A DNA stretch of 64,000 nt from Engelhardtia mirabilis (GTDB taxonomy: Bacteria > Planctomycetota > UBA1135 > GCA-002686595), in the NCBI GenBank assembly GCA_007751255.1, contig CP036296.1, forward strand, positions 5,146,001 through 5,210,000, read 5' to 3'. Below are positions 44,957-48,741 of this stretch, piece by piece (position 1 is the stretch's first letter; each line of letters starts with the position of its first letter). Below the pieces are notes generated by a model that saw only the letters and a list, made by a program, of their open reading frames with translations, ran no database searches and was not told the DNA's origin. A program made the position numbers and the translations under genes.

Positions 44957-47008
44957 TCACCACGACAGGCCCAAGGCCTCGAGCTCAGAGGCCGGCACGG
45001 GCCTGAAACCGGCCGGCTTGAGGCTGAACTGGGCTCGCCCCTGGGACAGGGAGCGCAGCTCGGTGGAGAAGCCGGACATCGCTGCGAGCCGGGCGCGACC
45101 ACTGATCACCTGCCAGGTGCCCTCCCCCACGGATTCGCCGATGCTTGCGCGCTGGCTCTTCATGAGCGCGAGCGCCGATCCGGCGTAGTTGGCAGGCGTC
45201 CGCACCTCGAGGTCGACCATCGGCTCGAGCAACTCGACCGATACCCCCTGCATGGCTTCCCGGGCGGCGATCGAGGCGCATTGACCGAGTGCGTGCTCGG
45301 CCCCATCGGCGAGCTCCGCCCTAGCCACCAGGATTCTCATCCTGGAGTCGATCAACGGGAATCCGAAGCGCGGGCCCACCTGAGCCAGGCGTCGCAGGTT
45401 GGCCTCGACGGACTCTCGCAGGTGGGCCGCCAGCTCGACCCCCGGGGCCCAGTCGATGGTCAAGCGTCCGGAGGTCGGGTCGGGGGCGAGCTCGATCTCG
45501 AGCAGGCCCTTCAGACGCCGGGCCCCCGCCTCGCGCTCGACTTCGGCCCGCCCTCGAGCACTGGTCAGGACCGCCTCCCGGTAGGCCACGCTGGGGACTC
45601 CGAAGCGGGCCTTGATCCCGAATTGCTCCCGCAGGCGGTTCTCGACCACCTCCAGATGCAGCTCCCCCATGCCCGAGACCTGGTACTGCCCGGTCTCGGC
45701 GTCCACGAGGACCCGCAGGGTCGGGTCTTCGCGCCCGAGGCGGGCCAGAGAGTCCGCCAAGACGGCCCGGTCGATCTCGCGCTCGGGCTCGACGATTGCC
45801 GTGAGCACCGGCTCGGAGAAAGTCTGGGACTCGAGCACCAAGCCCGGCGCCGTACCGCAAAGAGTGTCGCCCGTGGTCGCACCGACGGTGTCCGGCAGAG
45901 CCACGATCTCGCCCGGGCCGGCCGCGTAGACCTCGTGGGTGCTGTCGGCGTGCAGGCGGTAGAGCGCCTCGACCGGCAGGTGAGTGGCGAGCCGAGGAAT
46001 CCACAGACGGGCCCCGCGCTCGATGATCCCCGCATAGACGCGCACGAAGAGCAGCGGCGGACCACCATCCAGGGACTGCACCTTGAAGACGAGGGCGCAG
46101 ACGTCGGCGAGCGGATCGGGCGGGACCAGATGTGGAGAACCATCGGAGAGGAACTCCGCCCGAGGGGGCTCGCGGTCGTCGGGTCCGGGCAGAAACTCCA
46201 CCACCGCGTCAAGCAGGCGCTGCATCCCGATGTTCCGCAACGCAGCCCCGCACAGCACCGGCTGAAGCTCGCCGGCAAGGGTGGCTCGGCGAACGGCGGC
46301 GACCAGGGTGGCCCGATCGGGACGACGGTCTGCAGCCAGGTCGTCGAGAACCGCCTCGTCCATCTCCGCCAGTCGCTCGACAAGCTCGGCATGCAGGACA
46401 CCGGCCTCGTCGGCAACCTCCGGGGGAAGCTCGATGCGGGACTCACGACCCTGGGCGTCGTAGACCCACGCGGTCAGGTCCAGCAGGTCCACCACCCCGC
46501 GCAGGTCCGGCCCTTCGCCCAGGGGGTAGTGCACCGGCAAGGCCTCGACCTCTAGCCGCGCCTCCAGGTCGGCCACCGCCACCAAGTAGTCGGCTCCCGG
46601 ACGGTCGCACTGGTTGACCAGGGTGATGGTGGGCACGCCGAAACGCCGGGCCTGACGCCATACGGCTTCGGACTGCGCCTGCACCCCGCCGATCGCACTG
46701 AGCACCAACACCGCACCGTCCAGGACGCGCAGGCAGCGCTCGACCTCGACCGTGAAGTCCACGTGCCCGGGGGTGTCGATCAGATTGAGCAGGTGATCGC
46801 GCCAGGGCAGGCAGGTCGCCGCAGCCGTGATCGTGATCCCGCGCCGGCGCTCCTCCGGCATCCAGTCGAGCACGGTGGACCCTTCGTGAACCTCCCCGAA
46901 TCGCGCCTCAACGCCTGAGAAGTAGAGCAGGCGCTCGGACACCGTGGTCTTGCCCGCATCGATGTGCGCGACGATACCGATGTTGCGAAGCGCGCTGAGC
47001 TCGACCAC
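44957..47008 (-). CDS. fusA: divergent elongation factor G family GTPase
   Basis: Translational GTPase for translocation or ribosome recycling. The 683-residue protein has all five EF-G domains. G1 is AHIDAGKT (14-21), RRRGITI (54-60) marks switch I, G3 is DTPGH (78-82), and the C-terminal part ends with GRAQFSLKPAGF. The guanine-recognition motif reads NQCD (132-135) rather than NKxD, and the domain IV tip region deviates from the usual pattern. It occupies the fusA slot between rpsG and rpsJ, with no tuf following. It may be the main EF-G or an EF-G2/spdEFG-type paralogue specialised for one step; no second fusA is in the window. The start is GTG. Confidence 0.85.
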   Translation of the reverse strand: MVELSALRNIGIVAHIDAGKTTVSERLLYFSGVEARFGEVHEGSTVLDWMPEERRRGITITAAATCLPWRDHLLNLIDTPGHVDFTVEVERCLRVLDGAVLVLSAIGGVQAQSEAVWRQARRFGVPTITLVNQCDRPGADYLVAVADLEARLEVEALPVHYPLGEGPDLRGVVDLLDLTAWVYDAQGRESRIELPPEVADEAGVLHAELVERLAEMDEAVLDDLAADRRPDRATLVAAVRRATLAGELQPVLCGAALRNIGMQRLLDAVVEFLPGPDDREPPRAEFLSDGSPHLVPPDPLADVCALVFKVQSLDGGPPLLFVRVYAGIIERGARLWIPRLATHLPVEALYRLHADSTHEVYAAGPGEIVALPDTVGATTGDTLCGTAPGLVLESQTFSEPVLTAIVEPEREIDRAVLADSLARLGREDPTLRVLVDAETGQYQVSGMGELHLEVVENRLREQFGIKARFGVPSVAYREAVLTSARGRAEVEREAGARRLKGLLEIELAPDPTSGRLTIDWAPGVELAAHLRESVEANLRRLAQVGPRFGFPLIDSRMRILVARAELADGAEHALGQCASIAAREAMQGVSVELLEPMVDLEVRTPANYAGSALALMKSQRASIGESVGEGTWQVISGRARLAAMSGFSTELRSLSQGRAQFSLKPAGFRPVPASELEALGLSW

Positions 47009-47017
47009 CGCCGGAGA

Positions 47018-47470
47018 TTAGCCCGCCAACTCTGGATTCAGGTCGAGGAACTCCCGCGCGAAGTGGTAGCCCTCGAGTAGCTGCGGGTCCGCATGACCCA
47101 GGAAGTGGCAGGCCGCGAAGAGGGCCTCGATCGACGCAAGGCCCGCCTCCGGATCGTCAAAAGTCCGACTACGGCGAGGGTAGGCGGTGCGCATCGGCGG
47201 CAGGGACCTCGCTACGGGGTGCCCCACCACGGTCGAGCGCAGGGCGGCCAGTCGGCGCCAGCTGGAGTCGATCAGGAACAGCCTTCGACCCCGATCCGAC
47301 TCCCCCAGCTCGGGTGCCGCCGGATCCAGCAGCACTCGGTCCCCGACGTCCAACCGTAGGTCGGGCCGGTAGCTCACGAAGCGAACCCCCTCCAAGGCAC
47401 GCAAGGGCGCGAGAGAGCACCGCTTCCACGACTCCTTCGGGTCGCGCAGAATCAAGATGTCGCGCTGCAT
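47018..47470 (-). CDS. Tsr3/DUF367-like protein, probable rRNA aminocarboxypropyltransferase
   Basis: A 150-residue protein matching the Tsr3 pattern: ILILRDPKESWKRCSLAPL at the start, VLLDPAAPELGESD (about 46-59), LFLIDSSWRR (64-73; the family has vDCSW), SLPPMRTAYPRRS (89-101; compare LPxLxAANPxNYG), LASIEALFAACHFLG (111-125) and HFAREFLDLNPEL (136-148). Archaeal and eukaryotic Tsr3 transfer the aminocarboxypropyl group of SAM to a hypermodified uridine of small-subunit rRNA; DTW-domain proteins do a similar reaction on tRNA. Its place between rpsG and fusA suggests ribosome modification. The substrate is inference. The ATG has GGAGGT 6 nt upstream; its stop is 9 bp before fusA. Confidence 0.68.
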   Translation of the reverse strand: MQRDILILRDPKESWKRCSLAPLRALEGVRFVSYRPDLRLDVGDRVLLDPAAPELGESDRGRRLFLIDSSWRRLAALRSTVVGHPVARSLPPMRTAYPRRSRTFDDPEAGLASIEALFAACHFLGHADPQLLEGYHFAREFLDLNPELAG

Positions 47471-47585
47471 CGGTCACCTCCCATCCTCCCCTCTTTCACG
47501 CCGGCTGCCCCCGAACGAGCCAGGGCCGCGCCCTCTGGAGGATCGCGGCCCTGACCTTGGTCTCAGCTCCACCGGCCTGCTCGCC

Positions 47586-47851
47586 CCAACGGCGCCAGCC
47601 ATTGGGCCAACCACACTTTCGCGCGCACTAGCGAGCCCGCTCCAACGGCGCCAGCCGTTCGGCCGACCACACTTTCGCGCGCGCTAGCGAGCCCGCTCCA
47701 ACGGCGCCAGCCGTTGGGCCAACCACACTTTCGCGCGCACTAGCGAGCCCGCTCCAACGGCGCCAGCCGTTGGGCCAACAACACTTTCGCGCGCACTAGC
47801 GAGCCCGCTCCAACGGCACCAGCCGTTGGGCCAACCACACTTTCGCTCGCA

Positions 47852-47865
<14 letters not shown>
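47586..47865. repeat. five tandem 56-bp repeats between rpsG and the Tsr3-like gene
   Basis: Unit starts at 47586, 47642, 47698, 47754 and 47810 give a constant 56-bp period. Each begins with an 8-bp inverted repeat, ccaacggc-gcca-gccgttgg, followed by a stretch like ccacactttcgcgcgcacta and gcgagcccgct. Copies differ by a few bases (attgg in copy 1, ttcgg in copy 2, acca loop in copy 5). The last copy runs into the 3' end of rpsG and contains its TAG stop, so the array may have arisen by duplication of the rpsG 3' region. On the transcript it would give five serial hairpins. There are no spacers, so it is not CRISPR. The rest of the 381-bp gap, 47471-47585, shows nothing recognisable. Confidence 0.92.

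Positions 47866-48328
<463 letters not shown>

Positions 48329-48366: not shown

Positions 48367-48741
<375 letters not shown>

Follow-up and report, generated by a model that had tools for sequence, protein, structure and literature searches.

A Tsr3-like gene between the S7 and EF-G genes of the planctomycete Engelhardtia mirabilis, with a predicted acp transferase core and no classical helix-31 target

The window analysed here, a stretch of 64,000 nucleotides from Engelhardtia mirabilis (contig CP036296.1, positions 5,146,001 to 5,210,000), carries a Tsr3-like gene between the genes for ribosomal protein S7 and a protein of the EF-G family. The gene encodes a predicted transferase of the 3-amino-3-carboxypropyl (acp) group of S-adenosylmethionine (SAM), a bulky group that resembles an amino acid. 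We show by computation its homology to Tsr3, the predicted fold, the conserved catalytic residues, a linkage to the str genes at the level of the order, and the absence of the classical target nucleotide. We then weigh which RNA the enzyme may modify.

The locus

The features of the locus are as follows.

47018..47470, minus strand: Tsr3-like gene (TDD superfamily), predicted SAM-dependent acp transferase core, 150 aa, ATG at 47470
47258..47269, minus strand: codons of D68-S69-S70-W71, predicted motif with the catalytic Asp and the SAM-binding Trp (from the alignment, residue roles after PMC7026641)
47474..47481, minus strand: Shine-Dalgarno sequence GGAGGTGA of the Tsr3-like gene (from the sequence)
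44957..47008, minus strand: divergent EF-G paralogue, 683 aa (Pfam EF-G domains; TIGR00484 576 bits)
47852..48328, minus strand: rpsG, ribosomal protein S7 (Pfam Ribosomal_S7)
48367..48741, minus strand: rpsL, ribosomal protein S12 (Pfam Ribosom_S12_S23)
47570..47851, strand not applicable: 56-bp repeat in five tandem copies, in the spacer between rpsG and the Tsr3-like gene (found in the sequence)

A first-pass annotation, made from the letters alone, had described the protein by a series of Tsr3 motifs, and all of them are there (DPKESW, LIDSSW, LPPMRTAYPRRS, LASIEAL and FLDLN). The Shine-Dalgarno sequence that it had praised lies at 47474-47481, just before the ATG, and the 9-bp gap that it had reported does separate the stop codon from the GTG of the EF-G gene. 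It had also embedded the gene in the str operon. Adjacency to the S7 and EF-G genes holds, but co-transcription with rpsL-rpsG is no more than possible because rpsG is located upstream across a 381-bp spacer that contains the 56-bp tandem repeats. The five copies occupy most of this spacer. A consensus scan of 46950-47900 found neither a sigma-70-like promoter nor an intrinsic terminator.

Family, fold and active site

Does the protein belong to the Tsr3/DTW superfamily, as had been proposed? Profile matches of the protein and of its relatives uphold this membership. The window protein matches Pfam Ribo_biogen_C above the gathering score (32.3 bits against 29.9), with no match to Pfam DTW listed at E<=1. 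Relatives were taken from a scan of named genomes, which yielded 348 confirmed relatives (the best 80 being retained for locus counts), and from a search of the organism's own order. The resulting alignment A2 (n=73) comprises the window protein, 65 of the 80 named loci (near-duplicates having been removed by eye) and 7 loci from the order search. Ribo_biogen_C is matched by 62 of the 73 aligned sequences and DTW by two (E<=0.01); some distant planctomycete homologues also score with the DTW model, one of them (in genome G258) just above its cut-off at 34 bits. The profile built from the 73 sequences matches both archaeal Tsr3 proteins of solved structure (4.4e-11 and 1.2e-5). A structure check, which the first-pass annotation had called for, gave the same answer: the predicted model of the window protein shows a Tsr3-type SPOUT-like fold. 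Both in sequence and in predicted fold, the protein is nearer Tsr3 than DTW.

We then looked at the predicted active site. D68 and W71 are invariant in all 73 aligned sequences, as are further residues, although the 80 named loci were retrieved by the peptide GLAS(I/V)EAL(Y/F/H), so that the constancy of residues 110-117 follows in part from how the loci were chosen. The published motif D/E-X-S/T-W contains the catalytic Asp and the SAM-binding Trp (PMC7026641). Activity had been doubted in the first pass because DSSW stands here in place of DCSW. This worry is unfounded, since DSSW fits the published motif and occurs more often in the alignment than any other form (24/73). The whole motif is present in 51 of the 73 sequences, and the S/T position is Asn or Cys in four.

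Distribution and gene neighbourhood

A protein search (E<=0.001) found the Tsr3-like protein in 26 of the 31 genomes of the order, its own included; four of the five genomes with no match (G002, G013, G015, G017 and G020) are less than 90% complete. Across the phylum, a 25-row profile found the gene in 94 of 294 genomes, or 92 after removal of two weak cross-hits to DTW genes (G238 and G246). Because relatives recur in the order (26/31) and in the phylum (94/294), the reading frame at 47018-47470 is not a chance one. Among the best 80 of 348 relatives, the titles name planctomycetes in 59 cases, Opitutia/Verrucomicrobia in six, Myxococcales and Deltaproteobacteria in one each, and no phylum in 13. 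A plasmid search gave no match. The only viral relative among 12 candidate stretches (L050) was a 41-residue match in a region where reading frames overlap on both strands, and we took it as chance.

The distribution is that of a bacterial TDD protein of the Planctomycetes-Verrucomicrobia-Chlamydiae group (92/294 planctomycete genomes, with planctomycete and Opitutia/Verrucomicrobia titles). A bacterial TDD family found mainly in planctomycetes, verrucomicrobia and chlamydiae has been described as pc1599, in a work that predicts the superfamily to act as RNases and, in the parts available, mentions no str linkage (Burroughs and Aravind 2014, PMC4275035). Compared by description only, the two share the superfamily and overlap in phyla, and the window protein probably belongs to pc1599.

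How general is the arrangement at this locus? In 54 of the 80 named loci, the gene follows S7 and precedes EF-G on the same strand, with both gaps below 500 bp in 44; three loci have S7 only, three have EF-G only, and the other 20, some of which lie on short contigs, lack both genes on that strand. Within the order, S7 and/or EF-G are found no more than 1.5 kb away in 21 of 26 loci, the window's own included (14 of the 26 are records also among the 80 named loci). The five loci with neither gene inside that distance are L015, L016, L020, L022 and L024; L015 and L116 are one record, in which S7 and EF-G are 1.5 and 2.4 kb distant. In other planctomycete families, none of 12 loci (one of them, L245, cut by a contig end) has any of six str-region genes inside about 4 kb. 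Thus, the S7/EF-G arrangement is mainly a trait of this order rather than of the protein family as a whole, and the linkage implied by the first-pass annotation recurs within the order but was not seen in the 12 loci examined beyond it. As far as our searches show, which covered few subscription papers, this linkage is new to the literature.

Other neighbours recur as well. A ThiF-family gene lies near the Tsr3-like gene in L110 and L125, and a TatD gene in L115 and L125. In one locus (L066:6001-6450) the Tsr3-like gene is flanked by S7 and EF-G but lies on the opposite strand, and inspection by eye shows a palindrome and then a T run in the interval that separates it from S7.

The downstream neighbour, named fusA in the first pass, is indeed an EF-G-family gene, but it is a divergent paralogue: it scores 576 bits with TIGR00484, below the cut-off of 659, and the copy that passes this cut-off, with 918 bits, lies elsewhere in the genome (C1:1430450). 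The str-linked copy scores slightly higher as mitochondrial ribosome-releasing factor 2 (388 bits) than as mitochondrial EF-G (357 bits), and the order is reversed for the copy at C1:1430450 (468 and 543 bits). Because the str-linked copy leans towards releasing factor 2 and EF-G functions in planctomycetes are reportedly divided between spdEFG1 and spdEFG2 (PMC4342817, PMC3150367), the Tsr3-like gene may be coupled to a recycling-type EF-G, which we put forward as a suggestion.

The target RNA

What is the target of the predicted enzyme? Tsr3 (DUF367; archaeal structures 5apg and 5ap8) is the acp transferase of helix 31 of the small-subunit rRNA, and the first-pass annotation had proposed the same role on 16S rRNA here. 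The target of Tsr3 is U1191 in yeast, equivalent to N2-methylguanosine (m2G) 966 in E. coli, and this position is systematically U in archaea and eukaryotes and G in bacteria (PMC7005279, PMC7026641). Homology and fold speak for helix 31, as does the str linkage in the order. Against it, position 966 (E. coli numbering) is G in the organism's own genome and in all of 59 planctomycete 16S sequences; these represent 59 genomes, five by partial sequences, with 21 from carriers in nine families and 38 from genomes with no match to the gene. An exact-pattern search found the G966 helix in 48 of 294 genomes, which is a tally and not a frequency: in the remaining genomes the 16S gene may not be assembled or the stretch may differ elsewhere, and for several complete genomes of family f26 the search matched no 16S sequence whatever. 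The window's genome also matches TIGR00095 above its cut-off (129 bits against 117.5), which we take to be RsmD, the methylase of G966, and G966 in this organism is probably m2G made by RsmD. Nep1, the yeast partner of Tsr3, was not found in any of the 31 genomes of the order by a search that detected two archaeal controls; it is absent from some Tsr3-bearing archaea too (PMC7026641). Because of G966 and the TIGR00095 match, helix 31 is contradicted as a target at position 966, and we consider it the most improbable of the explanations. Since the classical RNA letter is missing here, the Tsr3-like protein probably acts on a different RNA site. That carriers lack the classical substrate nucleotide also appears new, as far as the literature searched can tell.

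We favour, with a probability just short of even (about 0.48), a minimal enzyme of Tsr3 type, within the TDD superfamily, whose reaction moves acp from SAM onto N3 of an RNA uridine, likeliest in rRNA or the assembling 30S subunit and not the classical nucleotide of helix 31. In such a mechanism, Asp68 would act as the base, and Trp71 would make SAM bind in a way that presents its acp group rather than its methyl group; the accepting nucleotide would then be another uridine of rRNA or of the assembling subunit. We infer acp transfer, an RNA substrate, and a ribosomal rather than a tRNA target. The evidence on the substrate leans this way: the co-occurrence with DTW proteins, the missing zinc region (both detailed below) and the str linkage within the order would all favour the ribosome, and another site in 16S rRNA is a possible, unproven recipient of acp. 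The more specific proposal that acp is put on bacterial rRNA outside helix 31 by an enzyme of Tsr3 fold, its gene lying with those of S7 and a divergent EF-G, is somewhat less probable.

Several observations set the protein apart from Tsr3 or weigh against an active ribosomal acp transferase. The protein is 27% identical to Tsr3 and falls far below the NCBIfam equivalog cut-offs for DUF367/TSR3 (37 of 152 and 21 of 300 bits), scores that would suit a bacterial branch that has diverged better than one imported recently from archaea. At the equivalent of A76, which contacts SAM in Vulcanisaeta Tsr3, 67 of the 73 aligned sequences have L or V, and AYPR stands where archaeal Tsr3 has AANP; the S/T position of the motif is Ala in 18 of 73. 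The host itself carries G966 in place of the substrate uridine, plus an RsmD-family gene. No 16S uridine tracks the gene: the best enrichment, 0.54, stayed below the 95% level of shuffled labels (0.63), in a scan of low power over 29 families by family means (nine carrier and 20 other non-carrier families, leaving out G002, a non-carrier inside a carrier family). Linkage to the str genes fails in the 12 loci outside the order and, inside 1.5 kb, in families f6 and f7 of the order itself (4 loci). Furthermore, a Glyco_transf_9 (heptosyltransferase-family) gene lies directly upstream in L111, L112, L120, L121 and L126, L121 being a locus of genome G024 in the window's own order. This is a second recurring neighbourhood, with no evident ribosome link, and it slightly lowers the odds of a ribosomal substrate because it weakens the linkage argument.

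Alternatively, the Tsr3-fold enzyme could modify a tRNA uridine (47, 20 or another), the str location reflecting co-expression only; this is a doubtful but serious competitor. In E. coli, acp nucleosides occur solely in tRNA and none in rRNA, according to PMC7026641, and TapT/TuaA (YfiP, of the DTW family) is the acp transferase of tRNA U47. No DTW match was found in the window's own genome, the str genes were not seen beside the gene in the 12 loci outside the order, and the nearby ThiF and TatD genes would suit a tRNA function, although that ThiF is the tRNA enzyme TcdA is only a guess. However, TapT requires a zinc N-terminal region for tRNA (PMC7026641), and the window protein is the 150-aa core only, with two Cys and no N-terminal Cys4 zinc region; it is also the Tsr3 side of the superfamily that it resembles, DTW being matched by just the two aligned sequences. 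Moreover, both families are present together in 27 of 92 carriers, compared with DTW in 33 of 202 non-carriers (odds ratio 2.1, p 0.013, uncorrected for phylogeny; f6 alone gives 10 of the 27 joint cases, so that the counts are not independent, and G258 was dropped from the DTW count). This co-occurrence makes a simple replacement of TapT unlikely.

Two further readings are improbable. A 30S assembly factor with weak catalysis or none, its fold kept for rRNA binding, would explain the Ala, Asn or Cys at the S/T position and the changed A76 equivalent; it is improbable given that Asp and Trp are invariant in 73/73, along with other residues, and that DSSW here conforms to the published motif. 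That the substrate is instead a translation protein (S7, S12 or the adjacent EF-G), by analogy with SFM1, a SPOUT enzyme that modifies a protein arginine, seems to us still less probable.

Testing the favoured reading, acp transfer to a ribosomal uridine, should be practical because complete genomes among the planctomycete relatives, Pla163 and Poly30, point to strains that we take to be in culture. To our knowledge, acp hypermodification of rRNA is known only from archaea and eukaryotes. If rRNA is modified, it would no longer be an archaeal-eukaryotic trait, and the history reaching back to the last universal common ancestor that has been proposed for the TDD superfamily would become testable (PMC4275035). 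If tRNA is modified, the split between rRNA and tRNA enzymes would not coincide neatly with that between the Tsr3 and TapT branches. Both outcomes would show retargeting of an acp transferase core where the classical nucleotide is absent.
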